A stretch of 26,270 nt of DNA, taken from IMG/VR virus record IMGVR_UViG_3300042359_000313, positions 1 to 26,270 of that record; one strand, written 5' to 3'. This document shows, one piece after another, positions 3,678 through 26,270 of this stretch. Each line of letters begins with the position of its first letter. Position 1 is the stretch's first letter. Origin of the DNA: a virus. The notes under the pieces were generated by a model, which searched no databases, had not been told where the DNA came from, and was given only the letters and a program-made list of their open reading frames with translations. Both the position numbers and the translations under genes were made by a program.

Positions 3678-3974
3678 ATGGCACGCACCAAGATCAAACC
3701 GCTACCTATCCCCAAGCGCATGCGCGTCGGCAAGCGCACCGTGCACATCAAGCGCGTAGTAGACCCCAAGCAGGTGTCGTGCTGCATCGACGGCACGCGC
3801 ATCGTGGTCAACGCTGACCCCGCCCGCAGCGCGAGCCGGATCAACGAGACGTTCTGGCACGAGTTGACGCATGCCATCCTGCACGCCATGGGCAAGCCCA
3901 TCAAGGCCGAAGAGAACTTCGTGCGGCAGTTCGCCAAGCTGCTCAGCCAAGCCGTCAACACGGCGAGGTTCTGA
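3678..3974 (+). CDS. Small HExxH metallopeptidase-like protein
   Basis: A 98-aa protein with H61-E-L-T-H65 in the context NETFWHELTHAILHAMG, a zinc-peptidase active site. Glu78 or Glu79 in the helix AEENFVRQFAKLL could be the third ligand. The two beta-type stretches before it (TVHIKRVV and RIVVNAD) match the short ImmA/IrrE-like peptidases found in phages. Known relatives cleave repressors or have unknown targets; nothing here identifies a substrate. AGGAG overlaps the polymerase stop codon and precedes the ATG. Its place between polymerase and nuclease suggests it is expressed with the replication genes. Confidence 0.8.
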   Translation: MARTKIKPLPIPKRMRVGKRTVHIKRVVDPKQVSCCIDGTRIVVNADPARSASRINETFWHELTHAILHAMGKPIKAEENFVRQFAKLLSQAVNTARF

Positions 3975-8312: not shown

Positions 8313-8425
8313 CGGACATCGAGCTGGTTCACTATGCGCGCTTGAAGGGCGTCGACGCGCTCGACAAAGCGTGGGTGGAAGAGCTGCTCCGCCGTCTGGA
8401 GAAAATCCTCAATCAACGCGCCTGA
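8273..8425 (+). CDS. Small hypothetical protein (50 aa)
   Basis: A short ORF between the XRE-like regulator and the primase. From ATG 8273 (GGAAG just before it) it gives 50 aa. From ATG 8309, which overlaps the regulator stop as ATGA, it gives 38 aa starting MTDIELVHYARLKGVDALDK. The protein ends in an amphipathic helix (WVEELLRRLEKILNQRA). It fills an otherwise empty stretch in the operon, and the ATGA overlap is typical of coupled genes. No family is recognised. Confidence 0.55.
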   Translation: MEKDMHGLQPSAMTDIELVHYARLKGVDALDKAWVEELLRRLEKILNQRA

Positions 8426-8433
8426 GCCTTGCC

Positions 8434-11400: not shown

Positions 11401-11454
11401 CTCACGATCCCCAAGGACCGCTTCGATGCGCAAGGTACGGTATCGATGGGATAG
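8434..11454 (+). CDS. Primase-helicase fusion protein
   Basis: A 1,006-aa two-part replication protein. The N-terminal part resembles an archaeo-eukaryotic-type primase: D82-x-D84 in FIDIDGY, SSGGGLHCYW with His121, and D160-AARVLRVPGTFNHK with Arg166. A middle section (residues about 264-345) has C264, C327, C338 and C341 and may bind zinc. The C-terminal half has Walker A STASGTGKS (Lys635) and Walker B SLPLLSDE (Asp678, Glu679), as in DUF927-type phage helicases. It should unwind the fork and lay primers for the polymerase. The start at ATG 8434, eight bases after the previous stop, lacks a clear ribosome site, so coupling is likely; ATG 8452 is an alternative. Confidence 0.88.
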   Translation: MRALELMAAVLPPPGHGRYCVAALSSKRKEHAFGDTLEELVPHIKRWFKQNRDIYFAMATFDPQQARRLAVNAQFVQSIFIDIDGYATRSEAGAALYEFLEKTGIDQLGLPYVVSSGGGLHCYWPLTEPADIATWKPIAENLKRLCAQEKLVIDMTVTADAARVLRVPGTFNHKAKYGTPRPVKLLREGTGPIDLRRFGATVRAQLSAKFAPASNAFVPETVQLAGQRPSKAQHKRSAAAEALMANQIQRFETIWIKSEEGSGCAQLKHYLDNASEDGMEPLWRGLLSWAKFCDDGDEQAAKLSELHPYEPARMQQKLQEIKGPYPCIKLDTENPGVCPGCPHWGKITNGLALGREVQTNNVGREIEIPANTLPPAEGEQELDTRREDNEFGVENDAPQNATTRRVKIPPPPKGFSYGNSGGIYVEIRERDATGVEIKTQVEVLPHELFVVDLLKLDDQEHRVHLMAIKRIGGAGLDQTQYTSIIVPSKAVVSKDEMLKCLAAHNVYASRGSVDQYLFNYVRACVNEATMMRKALEVPIQFGWQKDRSFVYNNRVFRADGTESVVPMPGLENLNRITNSKGTLEGWRKPWQLLIERRMYTMLAMCVDSFGSTLMHFSNHEGFVWHIGSTASGTGKSLTLSLKAGVWGHPVRYRTSKGTSPVAMQQRAGLLNSLPLLSDEITSKARNDVEWAPAFIFDFAEGQGKERMESSANKERLNNTTWASTCTMTSNVHMVDLLTGARKHASQGELMRMLEWTPTAELQFNDAERSVLQNLRNNYGVAGEAWVRWCACNYETAAKVWRHTHTALRGELDFSDEERIWHAACTSLVAAAVLLGEHYSGLLDLPVNALIGALSKLVQRARAVYRTSARSAEDVLNGYIREYHGKFVVLRKDAAGQLLADLGADLAGKTSTRSIVMGRVEHGTVREGAVEFFVEEHLLRQHCVTMSFGFADFKREMMRLKDDGFDVRFNQRKDMLAKVDGPSLRVTAMHLTIPKDRFDAQGTVSMG

Positions 11455-11611
11455 GGTGAAGGTCGGCCAGACCCTCTTCGTGCCGTGCCTCGACTTCGAG
11501 GCGACGCGCCGGGAGGGTCTGGCCGCTGCGCTCGCGTACCGCTACAAGGTCACGGCGCAGGTCGGGATCAAGGACGGGGTCTTCGGCGTGCTGTTCGTCA
11601 GGGTGCGCTGA
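11426..11611 (+). CDS. Small hypothetical protein (61 aa) at the convergent junction
   Basis: A 61-aa basic protein (MRKVRYRWDRVKVGQTLFVP onward) that looks like a small beta-rich fold. Its ATG is 29 bases inside the end of the primase gene, with AAGGA at 11412-11416 as ribosome site. It ends inside the last codons of the giant gene on the other strand, a 14-base tail-to-tail overlap. The first half reads like a real protein, with a VGQTLFVPCLD turn and a R-E-G-L helix resembling short wHTH-like or OB-like phage proteins, but no family is recognised. Confidence 0.6.
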   Translation: MRKVRYRWDRVKVGQTLFVPCLDFEATRREGLAAALAYRYKVTAQVGIKDGVFGVLFVRVR

Positions 11612-14600
11612 CAGCCTCCCGCAGGCTCTTGGCCAGCTGGATCTCCATCTTCTTGATGTCGTCGATCTGCTGGCGCTTCTCCGCACCTGAGACGCCGGAG
11701 GCGGCGATGTTGCGCTTGAGCTGCGCCAGCTCACCCATCTGCTGGCGGAACGCGCCGGCGGTCGACTCCAGTGCCAGCTCAGTCGAGAAGCGCCGGGCCG
11801 TGGCGTTGGCCGCGTCCGTGCGCCCCTCCTCCACCTGCGTCTTGTAGGTGTTCGCAGCGCGCTGGATGCGGGCCATGTCGTCGTAGGCCGCCTCGATCAG
11901 CCCGCGCCCGTTGCTGGGCTGGAAGAGCGAGCCGATGATCGGCAGCTCGCTGAGCGTACGGTCGGGCCGCTCGACGTTGTCGCCGGCCCCCAGCGCACGC
12001 ATCAGCGGGTTGGTGATCGCCAGCAGCGCGATGCCGGTGGAGCCGGTGTAGCTGCGCACGAGGTACTCGAGCTGGATCGGCGACACGTTGGCCACGCTGC
12101 CCAGAATCTTGGCCAGCTCCGACGTGTTGGCGCGCGCCCGCTCGCCGGGCTCGAGCGACAGCTCGCGCTGCCCCTCGATCGGGCCGTCGTTGTAGAAGCT
12201 GTAGTTGGCAGCCAGCTCGAGCGGACCCTTGACCGCCGTGGGCAGCGCCAGCGGGTTGCTGGCCAGAATCGTCTTGGTCAGCGCGTTGACAGCCTCGGAC
12301 GCCTTGGTGTCGCCCACCATCGTGTTGAACATCGTCTCGGGGATGGCCTTGAAGATGAGGCCAAGCTCGAACGGGATCGGCACGCGCAGCGTGTCGCCAG
12401 TGCCCGGCAGCGGCAGGAACCAGTTCATGGCGCGCTCCTGCGGCGTGGCGTTCTTGTACGCCTCGTCGTCCTGCATCATGAGCACGTAGGCGAGCGTCCC
12501 GGCCGCCAGCAGCGCGCCGCGCTCGAGCAGCTTCTCGCGCGCCTTCATGCGCTCCTCGAACGGGGTGTCGCCGGTGAACGCTCGCCACACGGCGTCCAGA
12601 CCCTGCACCTGCGCGTTGAAGAACGGGATCACGGTCGAGAGCCAGAGCATGCTGGCCGACGTGCCGCGCCGCGTGAAGTTCATCGACTCCAGCGTGCCAA
12701 GCAGCGCCTCGACGTGCGAAGCGCCCTTCTGTCGCAGGCTGTCGTAGACAGCCGCACGCGTGACCGCGTCAGCGCGCAACGCCATCTCATCGAGCCGCCC
12801 GAGCATCTTGGACATGGTGCTGCGGCCGCTGGCCACGTCGCGCAGCATGCGCGCCACGTCCTCCTTGTCGTTGGTGAAGACGTTGCTGCTGATCACGCCG
12901 GCGGCGCTCAGGTTCAGCTCCGCTGGCGACGCCTTGTCGAACATCGTGCGCAGACCGCTCACGGCCGCCATGACCGGGTTGAAGTTGCCGCCCGTGGTCA
13001 TCCACGCGTGCACCGTGTCGCGGGTGATCTGGCGCGCAGCGTAGACAGGCGTGCGCGTGATCGCCTTGCGCAGCAGTCGCGCGGGGGCCGCCATGACCTG
13101 CACGCCCGCAGGGATCGCAGTCTTGACGCCCTGCAGCCCCGTGATCAGCATGTCAGGCGTGACGCCCGGCGGCAGCTTGCTGCCATCGATGGTCACGAAG
13201 TAGTCGACGTTCTCCTGCGTGCGCGTCCCTTCTTCGTCCGCCTCTTTCATACGGTTGGCCTTGAAGCGCAGCGAGTTCGCCGGTCCTTCGCCTTTAACGA
13301 TCTCGGCCATGCCGAGGTCTTTCAGCATGTTGGCCACCGCCTTGGCCTGCATGTTGCGCGTAGCGGCGCGCACGAGCATGCCGGTGTTCTGCGCCATGCT
13401 GGCGAAGACAGGCATCAGCACGTTCGTGTCGCCGACAAGCTCGCGCAGCGAAGGCTGGTCGAGAACGCTCCCGATGGTGATCGGCCGCGAGACGCCAACA
13501 TCCAGCACGACCTGCGTGCCGTCGAGACGGTAGAACGGAACGTAGCCGCTGTCGAGCAGCTGTTTGCGCTTCTCCTTGTCGATGACACCTGCCTCATGCA
13601 GCAGCTCGATCAGCTCGTTGTTGTACGCGTTGTAGATCTTGCGCGCCTCTTCAAAGGCAGCCGCCGTCTTGGGGTCGCTCGCCACTTGCTGCTTGATGCC
13701 TGCGGCGATCTGCGCGTTCATGAGCGGCTTGCCGTCCTTGCCGGTGCCGAAGTTCAGCTTGCCGTATCCCACGCCCGGGCGCTCGGCACGCAGCACCGCC
13801 AGCCAGCTGGTGAACAGCTGCTCGGTGGCCTGCTCGTTGCCGACGTTGGCCTTGCTGAGCGCCTTGGCGATCGCGGCGGCGTTCGGCCCCTTGTCGGACC
13901 TGAGGAACTTCACCCCGTTGTCTTTGTCTGCCTTGAGACGCGGCACGCCGTTGGTGAAGGCGGCGCTGGTGAGCTGCGACACTTGGTCGAGCAGGCGCAT
14001 CGTGACGCGCATCTGCAGCACGCGCATGTCGTCGAGCTGATTGCCGCCGGCCTTGCTCAGGGCGTGCTTGAGGATGGCCTCGACGGGAGCCCAGCGATCG
14101 AGCAGCGCAGTGCGCAGCCGCAGCCCGAAGGTGTTGGCCATGAAGCGGTCGCCCATGGAGGCGTGCCGCCCGATGATGTTAGACACGTTCGTGGCTACGT
14201 TCTTGTCGAAGCCGCTTTTGTACTGCGGCGCGGTCGCAGGGAACACGCCGTTGAGCACGGCGGCAACGCCCTCACGCGCGCGCTCGACGTTGTCGCGCAT
14301 GGCAGAGCCGAGTTCGTACTCGGTGATTTCATCGATACGACGCAGCTCAGGGTACTTGCGGCTGAGTATTCGCGGGAGCGTCTTGTCTGTCCACACGCCC
14401 GGAAGATTGTCTACATCCGTTTCAAACATACCGGCTGTAAAATTATCTTCGACGACGTTCCTGACAAGTACATCAAGCTCTTCTGCTAAGGCGTCTTCCC
14501 GCGTCATGCCATGTTGCTGCTCTAAGTACGCCAAATACTCTAGCTGCTCCTTAGTAGGAGGGCGATTGAATTTAGCAGCATTTCGGCTAATCGCCTTGTC

Positions 14601-17600
14601 AGCGCGCGCTTTGAAAACGTCGAGCGCTTCGTCCCACGTCATTCCTTTAGTGTTAAGCAGCTCCGTGGACTCTAACGGATCGCCCGCAAGAGAGCCCGCA
14701 CGGTAGTACCGCTGCCCGGGCGTGACAGGAAACGCGTACACTGCAGTGCTGCCGTCTACACTGAATTTGCCGGCTTTAAGCGCCACACGCATAAACGGTG
14801 ACGCGTGTATGTAGCGATGATGCCCTTTGCCCGGCTTCGGCGTAGGGCCGTATGCGTGATGGACCCCTCGATACATAAATGCGGGTTCTGCCGGTCGAGG
14901 GCCTCGGCCTCTTAAGTAGTCGATGATTGATGCGCGCAGCGCATCATCGTATGTCCGTGCTCTATCCTCCAGCTGCTTAACGTTCTCTTCATTGGTGGCC
15001 ATGATCTTGACGGCCGTGGAGCGCGGCGGCGAGAACAGCTTGTACGCCTGCTGCATGGCCTTGGCCGACTCGGACTTGAAGCCGAGCAGCTTCAGCAGTG
15101 CGCGATACAGGCGCTGCAGGAAGTTGCCACGGCGGTCGATCTTGTCGCGCAGCGTGCGGTTGGAGAGCAGCTCGGAGACGAACTCTTTGAGATCCGTGTT
15201 GGCGTACTCGCGGGCGAACTGGCGGTCGGCCTGCAGCGAGCGGTAGAGCTTCTCCAGCTCGCGCCGCGCTTCGCTCGCACGGTCCAGCTCTGCGAGCGTG
15301 GCCGGGTGCGCCGCCTCGTGCAGCAGCGTCTCTTCGCTGAGCATGCCGCGATCGAGCGTGATGGTCAGCGACTTCGGGTTGTACTTGCCCTCGACACGCG
15401 CGCCGTTGAGCATGACTTCGTCGGCAAGAATGACCCGCACGCCCTCGATGTTGGCGAGCAGGCGCTGTGCCGTCTCACGGTTCTCCGCAGACGCGGACGA
15501 ACGTGCGAGCTTCTCCAGCGCGCCGCGCAGATCGTTGGCCTTCAGCGCTTCGACGACATCGTCGGGCAGCGCCGTGGTGGCGCGCTTCTCGTAGAAGGAG
15601 TTGTCGCCACGCAGAGCGCTGGCAGACTCGTCGCTTGGCGCTCTGCCCAAGTTGGCTGCGTAGAGCTTGTCGGCTATCTCATGCATAGCCTTGAACAGGT
15701 CGTCTTTGGTCGCCGTCTCGCTCAGATCGCTGAGCGGCTTACTTAGACTTTTCGCAGCAGCCTCGGTCGCAGCGGCTTCTGCTTCGCCCGGCTTGATCTT
15801 CTTGCTGGCCTTCGCAAGGCGCTCTTCTGCCGCAGCCACTTCTGCCTGCGCTTCCGCTACTGCGCGCTCGGCGTCTGCACGAGACGCAGGCTGCAGCGTT
15901 TCGGCCACTTCCAGTCGGGCCTCTGCCTTGCGCAGCTTCTGCTCTTTTTCTTCAACAGCCTGCTGCGCAGCGCGCAAGACGCGGCTGTCGCGCGTAGCAG
16001 TGCGCAGGTTGTAGCCGAGCGCGTTCAGCGTGTCGTAGGCCGACAGCACTGCCTCTTCGATCGGTTTGCGCAAGGCGTCAGGAATGGGCAGCTTCGCCAG
16101 TCGCTGCTCGATGAACTTGCGGGGGTCGACTGTCTTCGATGCCGTTCTCGCCACGTTCTCGACGCGTGCGGCCACGTCGTCGACGAGGTCGACCACGTTG
16201 CCCGGCGTCGGCACCCATGCGCCAGCCTGCCCGGACGCCTCGACCTGCGTACGCAGGTCTTCAAACGTCGCGCGCATCTTGTCGTCCAAGCGCTCTTTGA
16301 ACCGCGCCTGCGCCGCCTTCTCGCGCAGGTCGGTGTTGGCGGCTTCAACGTCCTCCGGTGACATCTGCAAGAACGGCGCTCTGTTGCCGACGGGCTGCAG
16401 CAAGCGGCCCCTGCCGCGCTGCGCGGGAGCCAAGAACTCGTTCGCCTCAGGCTTGCGCCCAGAGCGCAACTGTCCGACAGCGTTCAGGCGCAGCATGAGC
16501 GGGCTGGCACGATGGAACTGGTACTGCGTCTCGGCAATTCGCGCAACACGCTTGCCGGCCACCGCGATCAGCGCGGCCTTGCGCGCGTTCCTGATGTCGT
16601 CGCCGTTCTGAATCTCGAGCAGTAGGGAGAGTGCGCTTTTGAACGCGTCGTTGGCAGTAGCACGCTCCTGCTCTTCGACCCGCGCCTTCGCACCGCGCTG
16701 CGCCTTGGTGAGCACGAGCACACGCTCGACGCTGCTGTTCTTGTCGACCCGTTTGACGGCCCGCTCGATGCTGGCCAGTATCTTGTCTGCTTGCTTGAGT
16801 CGCGTGACGTCTTGTTTCTTGAGCGCAGCCGTTAGACCGGCAAGCAGCTTGTCGACCTTTGCCTGCGCTTTTTCGACGTACACGGCGAGCTTCTCGGGCT
16901 TGCTCTCGAGCCACTCGGCAACACGCTTGTCGATGAACCTCTCGAGCACGGCGACAACGTCTTCAGACGCGGCAGTCTTGGCGGTATCGCTTGCGAGCAC
17001 AGCTTGCGCTGTCTCGAGCGCCTCCTGCAGTGCCGCCGGTTTGCGACGCTCGGCCTCTTGCTTTTCAAGCAGCGCGGCAAGCTCTTTGAGCTTCACGTTG
17101 AGCTGCATGTTGCCGGCAACGGCGTTGTTGCGCCTCGCATCGAGGATCTGATTTTCGCGCGCATCGATAGCCGCGATCAGCTGACGAAGCTCCTCGCGCC
17201 GCTCCGGTGACCGCTCATCTTCGAGCCGCTCCAGCAGCGCGCGCCGCTCTATCTCCTTGTTTTCGCTGAGCGCAGGGCGGAACCGAATGAGGACGCGCGG
17301 GACGGGCATACCGTCAGGCGTGACTAGCGCATCGCCGTAGACGATGTCGAACAGCCTCTGCTCAGCCACGCGACTGTAGTAGCCCGACAGTCCGCGCAGC
17401 CTTTCAAGCGCTTGGGGCGAGAGCAGCCTTTCAAGCGCGCTCGCAATCGGATCGCCCTTCTCGTTGTAGCCCTCGATAACGTAGACGATGTCGTCGGCGA
17501 AGCGCATCGCCGGGTCTTTGCTCACTCCGGCGTCAACAAACTTCGCATCGACGCCGAGCAGTGCCTGCTTCGTTATGAGCAGCTTGCCCAGCGCAATGCG

Positions 17601-20600
17601 CAGCGGGCGCAGCGCAGCCTCGGCTGCCTCCGACTGCTTCACCAAGGTGTCCTGCAGCGTGCGCTGCTCATCGATCAGCGCTTGCCGCGCGTCGACCAGC
17701 TCGGTCATCTCCTTCTTGATCGCGTCGGTCATGCTGCCGCTCTTCAAGCGTGCGGCCAGCTGCGCAAGCTGCGCGTCGACGGCGTCCAGATCAGCGAGCG
17801 TACGAGCCGTTTCCGCGTTCTTGACCCCTTGCTTCTCTCGGGCCTTCTTCTGCCCCCTGAGAACGTCCTGCCGCGTCTCCAGCTCCTTCATCTGCGCGTC
17901 GATCTGCTGCGGCGTGAGCGACATGGCTTTCAGCCCCAGCAGCCCACTGCGCACAAGCAGCCCGGCCGCCTCTACTACCTCCAGCCGCTCTTGTAGCTTG
18001 GCCCGCTCGCGCTCGGCCTGCGCATCCGCCCGTGTCAGGGCGTTCAGCGCGGTCTTCTCCTGCGTGACGTACTGCCGGAACTGCACGGCGTCCTTCGACG
18101 CATTCGCCTTGATCGGCTTGACGGCATTGGCCATCTCTGCGTACGCATCGAGCACGTTCTTGAAGAGCGGGCCGATAGCAGAAGGCGATACGCCGCTCTC
18201 GTTGCGGTTCACTCGCAACGCCGTGAGCTTGTCGAAGAAGTTGCCAAAGGCGGCGACAGCCTCCGGCGGTACGTCCGCCTTTTGCAGCCAGTCGCGCGTG
18301 AGCCTGTGCATGCGGTAGAGCGACTCGAACCGCTCCTGCGCCGCCGTCTGCGCCTCGCGCAGCGCCTCGCGTGCCTTGTTCAGGCCGCTGTCGGCGTACA
18401 GGCTGTTCTCGAGCGCCTCCAGTTTCTTGGCCAGCTCGTCGAGTCGTCGCTGCAGCGCGTCGGCTTTCTCGGTCAGCGGCGCTTTCTGCGCCTGCTGGTC
18501 GGCACGCAGCGCGCTGTACTCGGCCCCCGCCTTCGCGCTCTCTGCGTTCAGCGCCGCGATCTTTGCGGCCAGCTCGTCGGCAAGCGCGCCCACGCTCTTG
18601 CTGGCCGCCGCGTCTTTCGCCGCCTTCTGCGCGTCCTTCTGGAACTCCGCGATCTGCGCCGAGGTCATGAACGGCGCAAGCGTCTGCTCGCCTTCGAGAT
18701 CGAGCACGCCTTGCTCTGCGACACGCGCAGGGCTGCCCGCCTTGCGACGGCGCGCCGACACGTACTCGACCCGGCCGAGCAGCTTGCGTGCACGACGCGT
18801 CAGCTCGTCGGCAAACTCGATCGTCGGCTGATCTTCACGGCGATGCGCAGCAACGGCGTTGCGCCACTCCGCACGCAGCTTCGGCGGCAGCTTGGCCCAC
18901 GGTACACGCGCCTCGGGGTCGCGCATGTCGTTCCACGCGTCTTGCGCAGACGCCTGCAGCGCGTCAGGCACATTTCGCTTGCGCTCCTCGTCCGTCATGA
19001 ACGGATAGGTCGGCTCTGTGCGTGTAAGCTCTTGCCGCTCTTGCTCGGTGGGCTGACGGCGGTAATAGTCGGTCTCGTACTCAGGCTGCCCAGCCTCTGC
19101 ACGCTGCAGCCGATCGAGGTTGTCCTGCACTTCACGCCGCTCGCGATCACCGAAGCGGTACGGCGTGTCGAACTTCGTGAGCGTGGTTCTTTCAGCGCGC
19201 CCGGCGGACGGCTCGACGGCGTCCAGCCAGTCGCTCACCGCGACACGCGCATCAGCGGCGGCAGGCGTATCACGCGTCAGCAGGTCGCGGCTGCGCGAAA
19301 CGCGCTCAAGCATCTCGGCGTCGGCCGCACTGAGCTTGTCGGCGTAGCGCGACTGGAACTGCTGCACGCGATCGCGCACCTGTGCCTGCGCGAAGCGCTC
19401 ATATCCGGCGGGCTGTCCCGGACCCCCAGCAGGCGCTTGCGCGGCCGGCACCCGTTTCACGTCGAACTGAAACAGCCTGCGTACTTCCGGGTCTCTGGCA
19501 AAGCGCTCCAGCGGGACTCGCTCGATGCCCGCCCACCCCCTCTCGTCTTCTGGGCGTGCAGCATCGTCAACGACGCTTCGCAGCAGTCGCGCCAGCTGTT
19601 GCGGATTGATCTGGTCATCGAGGCCGCGCGTCAACGCGTCAGATATCGTCTCTTCGGCCGACTTGTAGTAGCGCTGGTTCAGCCGCGAATCGTAGTTCGT
19701 GATCTCGATGGGGCCTGCGTCTTTGCTGCGACGACGCGTTCCGACACCGACGGTGTTCAGCTTCTTCAGGAACTCGACCGGGTTATTGTTGACGCGCATC
19801 AGCAGCGTGCGCAGCCTCTTCAACAGCTCCTCGGACGGCGTGACACGCTTGCGCTGCGTTTGCGCCAGCTGCCGCTCTTCCGGGAACAGCTGTCCTTGCT
19901 CGTTGGCACCAAGCTCTGTGCCGGGCTCTTCCTCGCGCTTCGCCGGGGCCGTGCGCGTGAGCACCTGCAGCGGTTCCTGCGGTGCAAGCGTCTCTTCCGG
20001 CTCGGCCACCGGCGCAGCTGCCGGCGCAGCTGCCTGCGCGGCGGCCGGCTCGACCGCCGGCTCGACCGCCTGCCCGGCGGCCGGCTCGACCGCCGGTGCA
20101 GCCTCCGCCTGAGCGACGGGCACAACCGTACGCCGGCGGTTCTTGGCCGGCGAGACGATGCCATCCTGCTCCATGCGCTGGACGAGCTTCGCCGACTCCT
20201 TGCGCGACAGGCCCGTGGCCTCCTGCACCAGCGAGACCGAGACCTTGTTCTGCTCGCGTACGGCCGCCACGGCCTTCTGGTAGGCCGCGTCGGACTCTTG
20301 GGCAGCGGGCGGTGCCCCCGGCGTGGTCGGCGGGTAGGGCTGGCCCGACAGCTCGGACGGCGCGCCCGGCTCGGGAGGCAGCTCGCCAACCTCCGCTCTG
20401 TCCCGCATGTCCTCGACAGGCATGCGCGGCCCGGGCGGCTGCATCGTCGAGAGGCGCTGCTGCGCCGCCTTCAGCTGCGTGGCGATCTGCGCGACCGTCG
20501 CCAGATCGCCTTTCCCCCGCGCTTCCTCGAGCTGCGCGTTCAGCTGCGCAATCTGCTGCGTCAGCTCGTCGTATGACGGCGGCCGCAGCGGCCCGCCCAG

Positions 20601-21812
20601 CGCCTCGAGCGCCTTCTGCAGGCGCTCCAGCTCGTCGTAGATGGGCTTGGACCGGGCGTTCAGCGCCTCAATGGCCTCGGGCGTCATGCCCTGCGTGGCG
20701 GCCGCGCGCTGAGCCAGCGTCTGCTGCAGCTCGTCGATGCGGGCGGTCATGCGCTCGCGCTGCGTCTCGGACGAGTACGTCGGTGCCGGCAGCGCGGGGA
20801 ACTGCGCGTTGGCGCGCAGCGCCTGCTGCCCCGCCTGCGTCCGCTGCTCCTGCTCCGCTTTGGCGACCTTGGCCTCTTCGTCCTCTCGATCGGCTTTCAG
20901 CTTCTCGCCGCCGCGAATCACCTGCCGGCGCTCGAAGCCTCGGCCGGCCGCACCCAGCGGGCCGGCCAGCGCCGCGCCGCCCATGAACGACTCGAAGTAC
21001 TCCTTGCGCGCGTCCTCGTCCGTGATGCTCAGGCCGGCCTGCAGGCGCTCGAAGAGCTGCTGCGCCGCCTCGGTCACGCCTTCGATCGGCATGACCCTCG
21101 CACCGGCCTTGGCGTAGTCAGCGGCCTTCTGCCGCAGAGTCTGCGCGGCAAGGCGCTGCGCCTCGGCCTCAGTGATCTGCACGCCGGCGCGGCCGAAGAG
21201 CTGACCGATGCCGGGCACCATGCGCAGCGCGCCAACGTCAAGCAGCGTCTGCGGCACAGCCGCGCCCACGGCCGACACCAAACTAGTGTCAGCCAGCCGT
21301 TTGCCCGCCTCGACCTGCGCCCCGATGTTGGACATGGTGAACTGCGTGCCGGAGGCCAGCGCGGCCAGTCCGGTGGCGGCCAGACCGGCGGCTGCCGGTG
21401 CACCGAGGCCCGTAGCGGCCAGCGCGCCAAGACCGGCTGCGCCGGCGGTGGTTGCCATAGCGGGCACGGACCCGCCGGCGACCTCCTTGAACTTCTGCCA
21501 CGGCGACTGGAACCAGCTGTCCTCGGTCGGCGTGAAGCGCGCGGCTGCGGCGGCCTGCTGCGCCTTGTTGATGCGCTCGGCCTCCTCGGTGCCGATCAGG
21601 CCCGTGCGACCTGCGAGCAGCGCCAGATCTCCCAGCGCGCGCTCCTTGGCTGCGCCCATCGCCGCGCCGAAACCCTGCTTGTTGGGATCGGGTGCCGGCT
21701 TCTGCAGCCACGCGCGGCGCACTTCGCGCTCGAGCACGGCGGCCGGCGTGCCCTCCGGCGCTTCAACATCGTAGTAGCGCTTGTCAGGGCCAAGGACTCT
21801 GAAGATGGGCAT
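11598..21812 (-). CDS. Giant polyvalent/ejection protein (3,404 aa)
   Basis: One unbroken ORF of 10.2 kb. The N-terminus (FRVLGPDKRYYDVEAPEGTP) is a short module common in phage virion proteins. Residues about 115-155 are Ala/Gly-rich and hydrophobic. Residues about 505-560 match the FtsK-gamma winged helix (KVSVSLVQEATGLSRKESAK, then MEQDGIV). Ala/Pro/Glu repeats follow, then coiled coils to about 2100. H2165-E-A-A-H2169, with EFVSELLSN downstream, is a metallopeptidase. Residues about 2271-2495 are an AT-richer insert, and the last 900 residues resemble LPD38 of polyvalent proteins. No transglycosylase motif was seen. TGAGGA ahead of the ATG is the ribosome site. Such proteins are packaged and injected with the DNA to protect or establish it; this role is inferred. 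Confidence 0.9.
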   Translation of the reverse strand: MPIFRVLGPDKRYYDVEAPEGTPAAVLEREVRRAWLQKPAPDPNKQGFGAAMGAAKERALGDLALLAGRTGLIGTEEAERINKAQQAAAAARFTPTEDSWFQSPWQKFKEVAGGSVPAMATTAGAAGLGALAATGLGAPAAAGLAATGLAALASGTQFTMSNIGAQVEAGKRLADTSLVSAVGAAVPQTLLDVGALRMVPGIGQLFGRAGVQITEAEAQRLAAQTLRQKAADYAKAGARVMPIEGVTEAAQQLFERLQAGLSITDEDARKEYFESFMGGAALAGPLGAAGRGFERRQVIRGGEKLKADREDEEAKVAKAEQEQRTQAGQQALRANAQFPALPAPTYSSETQRERMTARIDELQQTLAQRAAATQGMTPEAIEALNARSKPIYDELERLQKALEALGGPLRPPSYDELTQQIAQLNAQLEEARGKGDLATVAQIATQLKAAQQRLSTMQPPGPRMPVEDMRDRAEVGELPPEPGAPSELSGQPYPPTTPGAPPAAQESDAAYQKAVAAVREQNKVSVSLVQEATGLSRKESAKLVQRMEQDGIVSPAKNRRRTVVPVAQAEAAPAVEPAAGQAVEPAVEPAAAQAAAPAAAPVAEPEETLAPQEPLQVLTRTAPAKREEEPGTELGANEQGQLFPEERQLAQTQRKRVTPSEELLKRLRTLLMRVNNNPVEFLKKLNTVGVGTRRRSKDAGPIEITNYDSRLNQRYYKSAEETISDALTRGLDDQINPQQLARLLRSVVDDAARPEDERGWAGIERVPLERFARDPEVRRLFQFDVKRVPAAQAPAGGPGQPAGYERFAQAQVRDRVQQFQSRYADKLSAADAEMLERVSRSRDLLTRDTPAAADARVAVSDWLDAVEPSAGRAERTTLTKFDTPYRFGDRERREVQDNLDRLQRAEAGQPEYETDYYRRQPTEQERQELTRTEPTYPFMTDEERKRNVPDALQASAQDAWNDMRDPEARVPWAKLPPKLRAEWRNAVAAHRREDQPTIEFADELTRRARKLLGRVEYVSARRRKAGSPARVAEQGVLDLEGEQTLAPFMTSAQIAEFQKDAQKAAKDAAASKSVGALADELAAKIAALNAESAKAGAEYSALRADQQAQKAPLTEKADALQRRLDELAKKLEALENSLYADSGLNKAREALREAQTAAQERFESLYRMHRLTRDWLQKADVPPEAVAAFGNFFDKLTALRVNRNESGVSPSAIGPLFKNVLDAYAEMANAVKPIKANASKDAVQFRQYVTQEKTALNALTRADAQAERERAKLQERLEVVEAAGLLVRSGLLGLKAMSLTPQQIDAQMKELETRQDVLRGQKKAREKQGVKNAETARTLADLDAVDAQLAQLAARLKSGSMTDAIKKEMTELVDARQALIDEQRTLQDTLVKQSEAAEAALRPLRIALGKLLITKQALLGVDAKFVDAGVSKDPAMRFADDIVYVIEGYNEKGDPIASALERLLSPQALERLRGLSGYYSRVAEQRLFDIVYGDALVTPDGMPVPRVLIRFRPALSENKEIERRALLERLEDERSPERREELRQLIAAIDARENQILDARRNNAVAGNMQLNVKLKELAALLEKQEAERRKPAALQEALETAQAVLASDTAKTAASEDVVAVLERFIDKRVAEWLESKPEKLAVYVEKAQAKVDKLLAGLTAALKKQDVTRLKQADKILASIERAVKRVDKNSSVERVLVLTKAQRGAKARVEEQERATANDAFKSALSLLLEIQNGDDIRNARKAALIAVAGKRVARIAETQYQFHRASPLMLRLNAVGQLRSGRKPEANEFLAPAQRGRGRLLQPVGNRAPFLQMSPEDVEAANTDLREKAAQARFKERLDDKMRATFEDLRTQVEASGQAGAWVPTPGNVVDLVDDVAARVENVARTASKTVDPRKFIEQRLAKLPIPDALRKPIEEAVLSAYDTLNALGYNLRTATRDSRVLRAAQQAVEEKEQKLRKAEARLEVAETLQPASRADAERAVAEAQAEVAAAEERLAKASKKIKPGEAEAAATEAAAKSLSKPLSDLSETATKDDLFKAMHEIADKLYAANLGRAPSDESASALRGDNSFYEKRATTALPDDVVEALKANDLRGALEKLARSSASAENRETAQRLLANIEGVRVILADEVMLNGARVEGKYNPKSLTITLDRGMLSEETLLHEAAHPATLAELDRASEARRELEKLYRSLQADRQFAREYANTDLKEFVSELLSNRTLRDKIDRRGNFLQRLYRALLKLLGFKSESAKAMQQAYKLFSPPRSTAVKIMATNEENVKQLEDRARTYDDALRASIIDYLRGRGPRPAEPAFMYRGVHHAYGPTPKPGKGHHRYIHASPFMRVALKAGKFSVDGSTAVYAFPVTPGQRYYRAGSLAGDPLESTELLNTKGMTWDEALDVFKARADKAISRNAAKFNRPPTKEQLEYLAYLEQQHGMTREDALAEELDVLVRNVVEDNFTAGMFETDVDNLPGVWTDKTLPRILSRKYPELRRIDEITEYELGSAMRDNVERAREGVAAVLNGVFPATAPQYKSGFDKNVATNVSNIIGRHASMGDRFMANTFGLRLRTALLDRWAPVEAILKHALSKAGGNQLDDMRVLQMRVTMRLLDQVSQLTSAAFTNGVPRLKADKDNGVKFLRSDKGPNAAAIAKALSKANVGNEQATEQLFTSWLAVLRAERPGVGYGKLNFGTGKDGKPLMNAQIAAGIKQQVASDPKTAAAFEEARKIYNAYNNELIELLHEAGVIDKEKRKQLLDSGYVPFYRLDGTQVVLDVGVSRPITIGSVLDQPSLRELVGDTNVLMPVFASMAQNTGMLVRAATRNMQAKAVANMLKDLGMAEIVKGEGPANSLRFKANRMKEADEEGTRTQENVDYFVTIDGSKLPPGVTPDMLITGLQGVKTAIPAGVQVMAAPARLLRKAITRTPVYAARQITRDTVHAWMTTGGNFNPVMAAVSGLRTMFDKASPAELNLSAAGVISSNVFTNDKEDVARMLRDVASGRSTMSKMLGRLDEMALRADAVTRAAVYDSLRQKGASHVEALLGTLESMNFTRRGTSASMLWLSTVIPFFNAQVQGLDAVWRAFTGDTPFEERMKAREKLLERGALLAAGTLAYVLMMQDDEAYKNATPQERAMNWFLPLPGTGDTLRVPIPFELGLIFKAIPETMFNTMVGDTKASEAVNALTKTILASNPLALPTAVKGPLELAANYSFYNDGPIEGQRELSLEPGERARANTSELAKILGSVANVSPIQLEYLVRSYTGSTGIALLAITNPLMRALGAGDNVERPDRTLSELPIIGSLFQPSNGRGLIEAAYDDMARIQRAANTYKTQVEEGRTDAANATARRFSTELALESTAGAFRQQMGELAQLKRNIAASGVSGAEKRQQIDDIKKMEIQLAKSLREAVSAP
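14330..15002 (-). other. AT-richer in-frame insert in the giant gene, possible ADP-ribosyltransferase-like domain
   Basis: GC is 25 of 60 at 14401-14460 and 27 of 60 at 14521-14580, against 45 of 60 at 13081-13140 in the same gene. The encoded segment is about residues 2271-2495 and opens with MATNEENVKQLEDR exactly at one composition boundary. It contains Y2314-R-G, GKGHHRYIHASP about 20 residues later, then AVYAFPVTPGQRYYRAGS. A Tyr-Arg-Gly start and a following S/T strand recall ADP-ribosyltransferases of polyvalent proteins, but the catalytic Glu cannot be placed with confidence. The composition shift is seen directly; the domain name is tentative. Confidence 0.5.
20009..20096 (-). repeat. 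Short tandem repeats coding an Ala/Pro/Glu linker
   Basis: On the + strand CCGGCGCAGCTG occurs twice in tandem at 20009-20032, and the 20 bases at 20041-20060 recur exactly at 20077-20096. They encode an Ala/Val/Glu/Pro linker just after the FtsK-gamma-like domain of the giant protein. This is probably a flexible spacer whose length can change by slippage. Confidence 0.75.
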
Positions 21813-21821
21813 GCCCGGTCC

Positions 21822-23459
21822 TCAATTGGGTTGTTGGTTGGCCGACGGGCCGTGCACCTTGATGCCGCTGCTGGTGGCACCGGCAGCGCCGCCGGCCTGC
21901 GTTAGCGGCGGCAGGTACTTATCGAAGTCCTGCTGGAGAAGCCAGTCACCGAAGCTGCGGATGTTCGGATACTGTCGCATGATCGTCGGGCCTTCTTTCT
22001 GCCACTTCTCGAGCAGTTTACCGTAGAGCTGCTCGTGTCTGAGCCGCAGATCTTGTTGAAGCCGCATCCCCTGCAGCTCGCGTTCCTGATTCATCCGCAA
22101 GCGATCCTGCTCCAGTCGCTTGCTCTCGATGCGCTCGCGTGATGCGTTGTCTTCTCGGCTGGCCTGTAGCTGCCCTGCAACCGTCGCGGCGTTGCGCTTG
22201 TTCTGCTGCTCCTGCTCGTACTGCCCGACGACGATCTTGCCGGCCGTTTCGCGGTTGACGCCATACACCTTCTCGAGCCCCTCGAGGTAGCTCTTGCTGG
22301 CCGCCGTCTTGGCTGCGCGGAACGCCGCGTTGGCCTCGACCTGCTCCTTCTGCGTGCCGTTGCGCGCGTCCTGCAGCTTGTCGTAGGCCGCCATCAGTCC
22401 TTGGCGCGCCGCCTCGATCTGCTGCATGCCCGTGCGGTACGAAGCGGCCCCGACGCCGAACGCCTTGGCTGCTGCAGCCATGGCAGGCCCGGGCGTGGTA
22501 GCCAGCGCGACGCCGGCGTCAATGATCGCCCACGCCTTGGCGTCGTTGCCGCGCTTCTCGAGCTTGGCCTCTTCCCCGCGCAGCCGCTGCTCGCGCTCGC
22601 CGTACTGACGCTCACGCGCCGCGAAGAGCCCCGCAGCTTCGCGCTTGCTCTCTTCGATATCGCGCAGCTGCGCGTCGCGCAGCTCAGCTCTGTCCTTCGC
22701 GAACGGGTCGGGCATCCGGCCGGTGGCGTTGATGATCCGCGAAATCAGGTCGTCCGTGCTCGGGCTCGCCACGCGCGGGGCGGCCGGCCCGGCCGGCCCG
22801 GCCGGCCCGGCCGGCGCAGCGCCGGGCGCGGGGCCGGGCGGGAAGCGCATGGACATGTCGGGTGCGCGATCGGTAGGGGCAGGTGGCGGCCCGGGCGGGA
22901 AGCGCATGGACTGATCGGGCGCGCGCGGCGCAGCGGGCGTTGAGGGCGTGCGCGAGGGGCCGAAGGTGTCGCCCTGCGCCAAGGCGCGCGAGCGCGCCAG
23001 CATGCGCGCTCGCTCGCGCTCCGCGTAGTTGTCAGGCGGCGAGGCCTGCTCCATGTACCGTTGCAGCTCCGGGCTGTAGGCGCGGCGAGTGCCGGCCGTC
23101 ATCTCGTCGGTCTCTTTCTGGTAGATCTGCTCGAAGTTCGCCGGGCCGATGGTGCCGCCGCTCTGGTAGCGCGGCACCTCGTCTTCTTCGTCGTCGCCGA
23201 GCGCGGCGATGCCGCCGCCCGGCATCTGCCCGACGCTGCTCGGGGCTGCACCGGCCAGACCTGCCTGCGCCTGTTCAGCGAGCAGCGCCTTGCGGTTCTG
23301 ATTACGCGCGCGCAGCTGCTGCCGACTGTTCAGCTCGTTGAGCACGATCTGCCGTTTCAAGTCGTTCGGCGGCAGCGTGTTGAGCATTTGCTTGAGCACA
23401 TCGTCTTTAAACGTGTGCACTCGCTGCGAGAACTGGATCGTGTCTTTCGGGTCGTACAT
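21822..23459 (-). CDS. Coiled-coil phage structural protein (545 aa)
   Basis: A 545-aa protein, probably virion-associated. The start is the ATG at 23459, which overlaps the stop of the upstream gene as TGATG; GTG 23462 is less likely. Residues about 1-60 are helical (MYDPKDTIQFSQRVHTFKDD). Residues about 180-230 are Pro/Gly-rich with two copies of MSMRFPPGP/QSMRFPPGP and a Gly-Pro-Ala run. Residues about 250-480 are a long charged coiled coil (ESKREAAGLFAARERQYGER and onward). It ends 9 bases before the giant gene. The composition and position suit an internal or ejection protein acting with the giant protein. No enzyme motif is seen, and the family is not recognised with certainty. Confidence 0.82.
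   Translation of the reverse strand: MYDPKDTIQFSQRVHTFKDDVLKQMLNTLPPNDLKRQIVLNELNSRQQLRARNQNRKALLAEQAQAGLAGAAPSSVGQMPGGGIAALGDDEEDEVPRYQSGGTIGPANFEQIYQKETDEMTAGTRRAYSPELQRYMEQASPPDNYAERERARMLARSRALAQGDTFGPSRTPSTPAAPRAPDQSMRFPPGPPPAPTDRAPDMSMRFPPGPAPGAAPAGPAGPAGPAAPRVASPSTDDLISRIINATGRMPDPFAKDRAELRDAQLRDIEESKREAAGLFAARERQYGEREQRLRGEEAKLEKRGNDAKAWAIIDAGVALATTPGPAMAAAAKAFGVGAASYRTGMQQIEAARQGLMAAYDKLQDARNGTQKEQVEANAAFRAAKTAASKSYLEGLEKVYGVNRETAGKIVVGQYEQEQQNKRNAATVAGQLQASREDNASRERIESKRLEQDRLRMNQERELQGMRLQQDLRLRHEQLYGKLLEKWQKEGPTIMRQYPNIRSFGDWLLQQDFDKYLPPLTQAGGAAGATSSGIKVHGPSANQQPN
22782..22815 (-). repeat. 9-base tandem repeat (Gly-Pro-Ala coding)
   Basis: On the + strand the unit GGCCGGCCC is repeated about 3.8 times. 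On the coding strand it gives a Gly-Pro-Ala run, like short collagen-type repeats known in phage tail and fibre proteins. It lies in the Pro/Gly-rich middle of the 545-aa protein. Confidence 0.85.
22834..22911 (-). repeat. 21-base direct repeat, two copies
   Basis: The 21 bases at 22834-22854 recur exactly at 22891-22911, 57 bases apart, and encode the M-R-F-P-P-G motif twice in the same protein. The spacing keeps the frame, so a duplicated protein module is likely. Confidence 0.8.
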
Positions 23460-24550
23460 CACGCCCCCTGCAGGATTTGTGCGGCGATCAGATCCTCGAG
23501 CCCGGCCGCGCTGTCGACAGCCCCGCCGCCGGCGAGCCGGCTCAAGCCGTACGCCGTGGTGCCGAGGCCCATCAGCTGATTCATCATGCTGGGCTGAGCA
23601 GGCGTGGAGGTCATCGAGGTCTGAGCCAGCGGCAGGCCGCGCAACATGTTCGACATGAAGCCGAGCTGCTGGTACGGGTAGTTGCGCTGCGCGTTGAAGT
23701 CCTCGTACTGCGTGTTGAGGATGTTCTGCGCCTGCTGTTGCTGCTGGGTGCCCAGCTGGTTCTGCAGGCCGATCGCCCCGGTCTGCTGGCCGAAGCGCGT
23801 CTGCCCGAGCTGGCCAAGCGTCGAGGCCGCCTGATTGGCCGCCTGCGCGCCTTGCAGCTGCAGCCCTGCGCCGAACTGGCGCGACTGCTCGCCGAGCTGC
23901 TGGGCGTTCAGGCCGGCCGACTGGTTGGCCATCTGCGCCTGCATGTTGCGCTGCTGGTCGGCGTTGAACTGCCCCATGGCCTGCTGGTATGCTGCCTGCA
24001 GCCCGGTGGCTTGGATGTCGCCCTGCTGCAGGGCCAAGTTGCGCGCGGCTTCAGCGCGCATGATGGCGTCGCGGCTGCCGCCGAACGCGCCCGACTGCAC
24101 CGCCTGCGCCTGCTGGCGCGTGCCAGCGATGTCCGCCTGCCGCTGCGCTTCGCGCTGCTGGATGTTGACGACGTTCTGCATGTACGGGCTCATGTACTGC
24201 TGAGCCTGCGCAGCGTCGAACAGCCCGGAGCCGACGCGGTCGGGCGAGAACTGCCCCGCCTCGTAGCGCAGCCCCTGCGCAGCCTCACCGGCGCGCTGCG
24301 CCAGCGCGGACGCCCGGTCCATCTCGCCTGCGACGCCTAGCCCGCCCGCACCCGCGTACGACTGCTTCTGCAGGTCGCTGAACTGCGCCTGCCGTTCGCC
24401 GCCGTACTGCTGGTAGGGCTTGAAGCCCGAGATCTTGCCGGTGGCGTCGCGGTCGAACAGCGTCCCGCTGGTGACGCCGAGCATCTCCTCGACGTACGGC
24501 CGGGCATAACCCGGGATGTTGGTGTTCTCGATGACGCTTGCGTCAGCCAT
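23459..24550 (-). CDS. Gln/Ala-rich phage virion-type protein (363 aa)
   Basis: A 363-aa protein with a conserved-looking start (IENTNIPGYARPYVEEMLG) and a Gln/Ala-rich helical body from about residue 100 to 300, including a five-Gln run. The C-terminus has GLGTTAYGLSRLAGGGAVDS. Proteins with an N-I-P-x-Y-A-R-P-Y-V-E start occur in podovirus-like phages next to other ejection-type proteins. AAGGAG five bases before ATG 24550 is the ribosome site, and the gene shares bases with the following gene (TGATG). No catalytic motif is seen. It is likely an internal core or ejection-apparatus protein; this rests on composition and context. Confidence 0.82.
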   Translation of the reverse strand: MADASVIENTNIPGYARPYVEEMLGVTSGTLFDRDATGKISGFKPYQQYGGERQAQFSDLQKQSYAGAGGLGVAGEMDRASALAQRAGEAAQGLRYEAGQFSPDRVGSGLFDAAQAQQYMSPYMQNVVNIQQREAQRQADIAGTRQQAQAVQSGAFGGSRDAIMRAEAARNLALQQGDIQATGLQAAYQQAMGQFNADQQRNMQAQMANQSAGLNAQQLGEQSRQFGAGLQLQGAQAANQAASTLGQLGQTRFGQQTGAIGLQNQLGTQQQQQAQNILNTQYEDFNAQRNYPYQQLGFMSNMLRGLPLAQTSMTSTPAQPSMMNQLMGLGTTAYGLSRLAGGGAVDSAAGLEDLIAAQILQGA

Positions 24551-24559
24551 AGCTGCTCC

Positions 24560-26270
24560 TTACGCGGGGAGGGCGCTGCGCGCCTTGGTGTCTTTGGCGA
24601 TTGCGTTCTTGCCCATGGACTTGCGCCGGCGCTTCTGGATGCGGTCCATCATGGCGTACAGCTGGCGAGCGCCGGCCTCGGTCGAGCCGTTGCCCAGCTC
24701 CGACACGATGCGTGCCGGGATGACGAACTCGCCGTCGGCCAACCGCGCCGGGCGCTTGCCGTTGATGCTGGCCGGGATCGAGTCAGAGACGCCGTCGCCC
24801 GGGCCGCGCAGCAGGCGGCCGCCGTCCGAGTAGTCCCCCAGCCCGCCGGGCATGCCGCCGCCGGCCAGCGCCGCAAGGCCGCCCTCGGCCATCGGGCGCG
24901 ACTGCGCCTGCTGGCCCATGAGGTAGCGGTAGGCCGCATCCGACTGCGTCTGCTGCCCGGCGGCCGGGCCGCCGACGACGTTGACCGACGGAGCCGCCAC
25001 GGAGATCGGCGACGTGCTGGTCGGGATGGACGTGTCCGCGCCGCCAGAGGCGGCCTGCTGTTGCTGGCCGCCCGCGCCAGCCGCGCCGGTAGCGGCTGCG
25101 AGCAGCGCGCCCGTCGCGATAGGGTTGGCCTTGGCCGCGTCCAGTGCTGCGGAGGCCAGCGAGCCGAGGCCGCTGGACAGCGTCGGCGCTGCGGCACTTG
25201 CGCCTGCGGCCCCACTGCCGGCACCGGCAGCCTCTGCCGCAGCCGCATATTGCGCAGCCCCCTCCGACGCGGCAGTCAGCCCCGTCGGGCCGCCTGCGCC
25301 GCCGGCCGCAACTGCGTCTGCGCCGCCAAGCAGTTCTGCCCCGCCACCGCCAAGCAGCCCCGCGCCGCCGGCCAGCGCCGCGCCGCCCACGAGCAGCGGG
25401 CCGAGCCAGTCCATGTTGTCGTTGAACCAGCCGCCGCTGCGCTCGTCCTTGACGAACTGCACCTTGCCATCGGCGTCCACGCCGTAGTGGCCGTACACGC
25501 CGCCCTCGTACAGCGGGTCGAATGACGCGGTGAGCCGTGCGTATGGCTCGGTGTACGCGTAGCCACCGCCCTCGCCTTCGCCGCTGCTGTACACGCGCGG
25601 GCGCAGGCTTGGGTCAATCCGAGATTGCAGGTAGTTGATCGCGTCCGCTTGGCTCATGTTGGCCAGCCCAGACTGGGCGAACTGGTTGCGGTACGCGTCG
25701 TTGTAGGCGTCGGCATTGAGTGCCCCGTTTCCGAGGCCGTACTCGTCGGTCAGCTCGTTGACCGAGCGCCATCTGCCGCCCTCGGCAAACCCCGGCACCT
25801 GCCCGCCCTCGGCGGCCGCGTACGGCGTGCCCGCCTCGATGCGATCGTCGAAGTAGCGCCCCGTGCGCCGGGCCTCGTCCTCGGGCACGCGCCGGCGGAC
25901 CAGATTGTGCGGCCGGATCATGCCCGGCTGGCGCGTCGTGGTGGGGACCGCCTTGTCCGCCTCGAACGCCGACGCGCCGGCGAGCGCCGGCAGCCCGGCC
26001 ATCAGCAGCCCCTTGGTGCCGCCCATCTGGTTGGCGAACGCCTCGAGCCCACCCTTCTCGGTCAGGCGGCCCGCGCCGGCGGAGAGCTTGTCCCACGCGC
26101 TGGCCGGCGGCAGCGTCTGCGCCACCTGCGCCGGAGGGAGCCCCTCGGCGTATGCCTCCGGCATGCGACTCGCCAGCGCCTGCTCGCCCAGCCCGCTGAG
26201 CCCGCCGGCCAGCCCCGCGCCGCCGTACGCGCCCAGCCCGGCCATGATGCCGCGCGAGGCGTTGCCCGTG
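24560..26270 (-). CDS. Gly/Ala-rich phage structural protein (5' end outside window)
   Basis: The frame stays open to the window edge: codons before the ATG at 26245 read TGNASRGI and join smoothly to MAGLGAYGG, so that ATG is probably internal and the gene continues beyond 26270. At least 569 residues are visible. The N-terminal and central parts are Gly/Ala-rich, including GPLLVGGAALAGGAGLLGGG, which could be membrane-active. The C-terminus has GPGDGVSDSIPASINGK, then ARLADGEFVIPARIVSELGN and a basic tail. The S-D-S-I-P-A followed by D-G-E-F-V pattern is a common ending in phage virion proteins. It ends 9 bases before the 363-aa gene. It is probably part of the ejection or tail apparatus. 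Confidence 0.85.
   Translation of the reverse strand, partial: TGNASRGIMAGLGAYGGAGLAGGLSGLGEQALASRMPEAYAEGLPPAQVAQTLPPASAWDKLSAGAGRLTEKGGLEAFANQMGGTKGLLMAGLPALAGASAFEADKAVPTTTRQPGMIRPHNLVRRRVPEDEARRTGRYFDDRIEAGTPYAAAEGGQVPGFAEGGRWRSVNELTDEYGLGNGALNADAYNDAYRNQFAQSGLANMSQADAINYLQSRIDPSLRPRVYSSGEGEGGGYAYTEPYARLTASFDPLYEGGVYGHYGVDADGKVQFVKDERSGGWFNDNMDWLGPLLVGGAALAGGAGLLGGGGAELLGGADAVAAGGAGGPTGLTAASEGAAQYAAAAEAAGAGSGAAGASAAAPTLSSGLGSLASAALDAAKANPIATGALLAAATGAAGAGGQQQQAASGGADTSIPTSTSPISVAAPSVNVVGGPAAGQQTQSDAAYRYLMGQQAQSRPMAEGGLAALAGGGMPGGLGDYSDGGRLLRGPGDGVSDSIPASINGKRPARLADGEFVIPARIVSELGNGSTEAGARQLYAMMDRIQKRRRKSMGKNAIAKDTKARSALPA

Follow-up and report, generated by a model that had tools for sequence, protein, structure and literature searches.

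A giant cysteine-free LPD38 protein as the probable cargo-bearing member of a phage DNA-ejection cassette

Introduction

The nearest experimentally supported counterparts of the protein described here are gp69 of Burkholderia phage JC1, which is associated with the virion by mass spectrometry (PMC9144972), and gp75 of Bcep22, both of Lessievirus. Further points of comparison are N4 gp50 (Schitoviridae), the virion RNA polymerase, whose C1 domain bears an HExxH motif (PMC12633501), and T7 gp16, the inner-membrane component of the DNA ejectosome. The absence of cysteine from N4-like polymerases has been noticed and explained by passage through the tail and periplasm (PMC3715699, PMC3915230, PMC2784036). 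Among the parts of polyvalent proteins, LPD38 has been described as phage-only, and FtsK winged helix-turn-helix domains have already been listed as rare components (PMC5512222). Here we analyse IMG/VR viral record IMGVR_UViG_3300042359_000313, a fragment of 26,270 bases whose whole length is called the window. A single reading frame on its minus strand (11598..21812) encodes a polyvalent protein of 3,404 amino acids without cysteine, hereafter the giant. We put at roughly 80% the probability that a phage of podovirus type encodes it as the last of four DNA-ejection cassette proteins, the one that bears the cargo.

Results

The giant is a real phage gene. Its frame runs unbroken from an ATG at 21812 to a stop at 11598, and a Shine–Dalgarno-like GAGGA (21819..21823, minus strand) stands directly 5' of the ATG. 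The G+C content at third codon positions (GC3) is 0.77-0.92 when the insert described below is left out, against 0.41-0.53 at second positions (GC2), as expected where the coding frame is a true one. A preliminary description of the window, made from its sequence alone, had likewise read one giant frame and had named a missed frameshift joining several genes as a finding that would overturn it; since the frame is uninterrupted and its composition supports coding, we reject that possibility.

The giant is the last gene of a row of late genes, and three smaller genes precede it, adjacent and on the same strand, so that smaller proteins are followed by the largest one as in the ejectosome cassettes of T7 (gp14-16) and N4 (gp52-50). 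The gene at position -1 (21822..23462, minus strand) encodes a 546-residue protein, probably a tunnel component. That at -2 (23459..24550, minus strand) encodes 363 residues and matches phrog_4287, 'DNA ejection protein' (PHROGs, E 1.1e-9). The one at -3 (24560..26270, minus strand) encodes at least 569 residues if its frame runs off the end of the record, and 561 from the first ATG. Searches with the C-terminal 800 residues of the giant found relatives in 80 viral contigs and in the cultured phages Pondi, PTXU04, phiARM81mr, CF418P1 and Pag-Yong1, and our family set comprises 71 giants, that of the window included, several of them cut at a contig end. Homologues of the -2 and -3 genes keep the same order in the relatives, and the -1 proteins group loosely in a single cluster. 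Two scans of genome contigs for prophage relatives that might point to the host found none.

None of the four proteins contains cysteine, which is our best clue to function and a feature that the preliminary description does not mention. There is no TGT or TGC among the 3,405 in-frame codons of the giant, whose other two frames hold 202 and 124 of these triplets. Across the family, the giants have 21 cysteines in 142,269 residues (0.0148%; 38 of 52 have none), the -1 proteins one in 29,469 (0.0034%) and the -2 proteins six in 14,155 (0.042%), against 1,902 in 136,174 (1.40%) for the opposite-strand reading frames, which were called mechanically and are in part spurious; the neighbouring DUF927 gene by itself has 11-17 per 950-1,030 residues. 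Three relatives of about 62-64 kb likewise have no cysteine in the cassette proteins encoded before the giant; their portal, terminase and many tail proteins contain it. The ejected gp50, gp51 and gp52 of N4 and gp15 and gp16 of T7, examined as controls, have none. This composition lends indirect support to the cassette being ejected. The main exception is found in nine giants, in which a domain inserted between the peptidase and the C-terminal frame bears a conserved AGTxWCT(G/A); this looks like a functional cysteine. In three others the single cysteine sits in a different domain of the middle, in a conserved AYGC with LHEVG before it.

JC1 gp69 compares closely. It matches Pfam LPD38 (1.9e-33) and the C-terminal profile of the family (1.4e-20), and has no cysteine in 4,515 residues. 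Like the giant, gp69 and Bcep22 gp75 have an HExxH motif upstream of a C-terminal LPD38, are encoded by the last gene of the virion module, and are cysteine-free, as are virion proteins encoded before them. In JC1, gp64, gp67 and gp68, which are virion proteins by mass spectrometry and are encoded upstream of gp69, lack cysteine, and it does occur in the acetyltransferase and the PAPS reductase encoded between them. Unlike the giant, gp69 carries an SLT transglycosylase, LPD3 and a methylase domain; conversely, the FtsK-gamma-like domain, the N-terminus typical of the family and the unrelated middle of the giant are not found in gp69. N4 gp50 resembles the giant in size, in the absence of cysteine, in its two adjoining cysteine-free ejection proteins and in its order of an injected N-terminal region, central cargo, a homologous zincin and a large helical C-terminus; unlike gp50, the giant has no RNA polymerase domain that we could find, and its C-terminus is non-homologous by profile comparison. 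The giants of the five cultured phages share the homologous C-terminal region and the late-gene context, and the four that were checked have no cysteine from the annotated start, but identity is about 25-26%, and the N-terminal profile and the middle of the window's protein are unmatched in them. A further counterpart, in the Lessievirus-like IMG/VR 2654588150 (frame from 7595), is a polyvalent giant without cysteine, at least 4,205 residues long, with two FtsK_gamma copies, which retain a GYNRAAR motif, unlike that of the window, and with SLT, InPase and methylase domains. T7 gp16, likened here by position and composition rather than by direct homology comparison, is also the last and largest protein of its cassette and cysteine-free, but has 1,318 residues and its own endolysin domain.

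The preliminary description had divided the giant into a virion-type N-terminus, a hydrophobic segment, a winged helix, kilobases of coiled coil, an HExxH peptidase, an insert of foreign composition and an LPD38-like C-terminus. Our analyses, including the Pfam profile searches that it proposed and that found LPD38 and FtsK_gamma, bear this out in all but the extent of the coiled coil. The N-terminal region (residues 1-330; 20823..21812, minus strand) is a conserved, putative delivery region common to 48 of the 71 giants by iterative hidden Markov model searches. It has hydrophobic segments at residues 126-155 and 178-197 and weak PHROG matches to virion and internal virion proteins. Its profile gave no significant match to the N4 N-terminal domain for the window's family. 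In the giant of Achromobacter phage CF418P1, annotated as 'putative portal', residues 187-375 do match the N-terminal region of the N4 virion RNA polymerase (4e-6); the combination with an LPD38-family C-terminus suggests, from sequence, that frames have been exchanged.

Residues 506-563 (20124..20297, minus strand) form an FtsK-gamma-like winged helix (PF09397, E 4.3e-9, 36.4 bits against a cut-off of 30.6). They also match the solved gamma structures 2ve8 (E 1.5e-5) and 2j5o, and one of the known gamma structures matched is fused to XerD. By these matches the domain is a genuine relative of FtsK gamma, although the 49 relatives scanned with Pfam in their N-terminal and middle parts have none. 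R1300 and E1303 of FtsK help to recognise the FtsK-orienting polar sequences (KOPS; PMC2680272), and R1289E, a charge swap, strongly lowers XerD activation (PMC5052618). Aligned to E. coli FtsK, whose numbering we counted by hand from the motif, the giant shows R1289E, N1296K (a role assigned by position only), R1300K and E1303Q, and retains E1306; the window is not enriched in KOPS (three found, 2.5 expected). The domain most likely binds DNA nonspecifically or has been re-targeted.

The following region (residues 576-2080; 15573..20087, minus strand), the presumed cargo, is partly amphipathic and helical and has no match in the family, in phages or in Pfam. Helical periodicity is clearly above that of shuffled sequences only at residues 1001-1500 (z 3.4), with z of 1.5-1.8 in the flanks, so that the coiled coil holds for this part and had been overstated beyond it. 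Taken as a whole, residues 330-2080 (about 1,750) match nothing anywhere in the family of giants. The parts of this stretch and of the insert that were searched had no match in phage records except for the FtsK domain, which weakly matched phage FtsK-like genes.

The zincin metallopeptidase (residues 2080-2276; 14985..15575, minus strand) has HEAAH at 2165-2169 and E2210 as the probable third ligand. Across 34 aligned sequences neither the HE..H nor the EF that follows it varies, and the catalytic residues are intact. The family profile of the domain matches the C1 domain of the N4 virion RNA polymerase (hmmsearch 1.2e-8; hhalign E 2e-6). An AlphaFold2 model, with a predicted local distance difference test score (pLDDT) mostly above 90, gave weak Foldseek matches in the PDB (E 0.006-0.2) that are largely zincins, IrrE/PprI-like, lethal-factor-like and PPEP. 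At the junction with the C-terminus lies the insert of about 250 residues (2265-2515; 14268..15020, minus strand), a gap in the relatives. Its G+C content is 0.556 and its GC3 0.60, against GC3 of 0.88 and 0.91 beside it, and it had no relative in family, phage, plasmid, viral-contig, Pfam or PHROG searches. An ADP-ribosyltransferase suspected by eye in this insert ('YRG...HAS...') found no support from Pfam, PHROG, phages, plasmids or viral contigs, and pLDDT is below 50 for the part concerned.

The C-terminal frame (residues 2516-3404; 11601..14267, minus strand) is common to the family and includes LPD38 proper (residues 3116-3293; 11934..12467, minus strand; Pfam E 8.4e-33). Its AlphaFold2 model (pLDDT 72; predicted TM-score 0.64) matches many predicted phage LPD proteins in BFVD, with TM-scores up to 0.84. 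The last 300 residues are matched in 70 of the 71 giants and the zincin in 38 of 71. Because the C-terminus, the N-terminus and the zincin are widely kept, and residues 330-2080 and the insert are unmatched, the giants combine a frame that is fixed with cargo that can be exchanged. The zincin directly precedes the C-terminal frame in most members; the window has its insert at that junction, and nine other giants have a different, larger one between the two.

Discussion

The giant joins several unrelated domains, FtsK_gamma, zincin and LPD38, and the insert in one polypeptide, as phage-type polyvalent proteins do. It has the LPD or hub domain expected of them, in the form of LPD38 and a metallopeptidase (MPTase) with HExxH and E, and it lies in the context of late virion genes. 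The earlier proposal of a polyvalent protein that enters the host with the DNA is supported by these domains and this context, by the cysteine-free composition and by the homologue proven in JC1 virions, and remains the best reading. Homology and composition point strongly to its being packaged and delivered. The absence of a transglycosylase and of a methylase or helicase, which had been thought unusual for such a giant, is not so: the 49 relatives scanned had no Pfam domains in their N-terminal and middle parts, and in 17 of 44 family members (a sum over separate domain families) the adjacent -1 gene carries an SLT, GH108 or glucosaminidase domain, so that the giant need not carry a transglycosylase of its own, since this gene can. 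The window's own -1 protein has no detectable peptidoglycan hydrolase domain.

The course that we infer for this phage, from packaging to cargo, would be as follows. The C-terminal 890 residues, with LPD38, would assemble the giant inside the head above the portal. At infection the three smaller proteins of the cassette would exit first and form a channel through the outer membrane, cell wall and periplasm, and the giant would be threaded after them in a largely unfolded state, with its hydrophobic N-terminal region serving the inner-membrane end. The middle would then refold in the cytoplasm. There the FtsK-gamma-like winged helix may hold double-stranded DNA, probably that of the incoming phage, with no specificity for KOPS; the zincin may cut the polypeptide, or a host target, freeing the working parts.

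Several points weigh against an ejected, cargo-bearing giant. No cell-wall hydrolase was found in the window record, and we found no proteomic study of the virions of this phage or of any close relative. The C-terminus has no solved counterpart fold by sequence or structure search; nor does it show homology to the C2 region of N4, as hhalign aligns the tail of the zincin only. The N4 virion RNA polymerase is packaged uncut (PMC5512222), and the targets of the zincin may be host proteins, or its role may be structural only. Nor is the absence of cysteine exclusive to ejected proteins: it is also missing from the T7 scaffold and from the major capsid proteins of N4 and of the family, and one ejected protein, T7 gp14, contains a single cysteine.

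It is conceivable, if doubtful, that the giant is above all an anti-host or anti-defence effector like P1 DarB or Bcep22 gp75, its middle and insert neutralising restriction or other defences and ejection being secondary. Its JC1 and Bcep22 homologues are DarB-like with methylase domains, such a role has been proposed for polyvalent proteins (PMC5512222) and the insert is of foreign composition, but Pfam detects no methylase, helicase, ADP-ribosyltransferase, nuclease or other effector domain in the giant (PADLOC was not searched). The two roles are not exclusive, and an effector of this kind would be compatible with ejection.

The giant might instead be a virion RNA polymerase, either N4-like or highly diverged, whose polymerase domain lies unrecognised in the middle. 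This would also explain what it shares with N4 gp50: its size, its lack of cysteine and a layout in which an N-terminal region and cargo are followed by a homologous zincin and a helical C-terminus. Such annotations exist for large cysteine-free proteins from similar phages; the StenR_269 giant, for example, was assumed to be one from its size, helicity and lack of cysteine (PMC10747016). However, apart from the zincin C1 preceding the C-terminal region, the match to such an enzyme that the preliminary description had said would undo its proposal did not appear. A profile of N4 virion RNA polymerases does not match the giant, there is no T/DxxGR motif, slices of the middle have no Pfam polymerase match above cut-off, neither a T7-like single-subunit polymerase domain nor C2 homology was found, and the middles of the relatives are unrelated to that of the giant. 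A recognisable polymerase is rejected, and an unrecognised one seems to us improbable.

There is little to recommend a structural or scaffolding protein that acts in assembly only and never leaves the virion: scaffolding and some capsid proteins are likewise cysteine-free, but a scaffold would have little use for an intact peptidase, a DNA-binding domain and variable cargo, the neighbour is an ejection protein and the architecture parallels that of the ejected N4 gp50. A role of the FtsK-gamma-like domain in activating host XerCD at dif, or in using KOPS to steer the incoming DNA, has next to no chance and is rejected, for all its match to FtsK_gamma and to gamma structures, one of them XerD-fused, as the contact residues are lost and KOPS are not enriched.

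The ejected giant favoured here thus belongs to a known kind of phage polyvalent or ejection protein, and its real novelty may lie in the middle and the insert. Tentatively, the middle of about 1,500 residues and the insert could represent new classes of injected effector on a standard cysteine-free LPD38 frame, with the cargo swapped in each lineage. The lack of cysteine could then be a general signature, legible in the sequence, of proteins that are threaded through the phage tail; the rare exceptions would mostly be cases in which function seems to need one cysteine, as in the WCTG of nine relatives. A fixed delivery frame with exchangeable cargo is seen across dozens of uncultured phages, and the explanation offered for N4-like polymerases, that threading through tail and periplasm disfavours cysteine, becomes testable family-wide, since whole cassettes and not one enzyme are cysteine-free. 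For annotation, caution is warranted: because LPD38 giants without a recognisable polymerase are also large, helical and cysteine-free, these traits are not diagnostic of a virion RNA polymerase.

The plus strand carries a replication module, within which a 98-residue reading frame (3678-3974, plus strand) has a small HExxH motif (FWHELTHAILHAMGK) and no homologue among the mechanically called neighbouring reading frames. The part of the module at 8371-11454 (plus strand; PolA, PD-(D/E)XK and DUF927 primase/helicase-like genes) is convergent with the ejection cassette, and about 60 relatives keep the DUF927 gene next to the giant.

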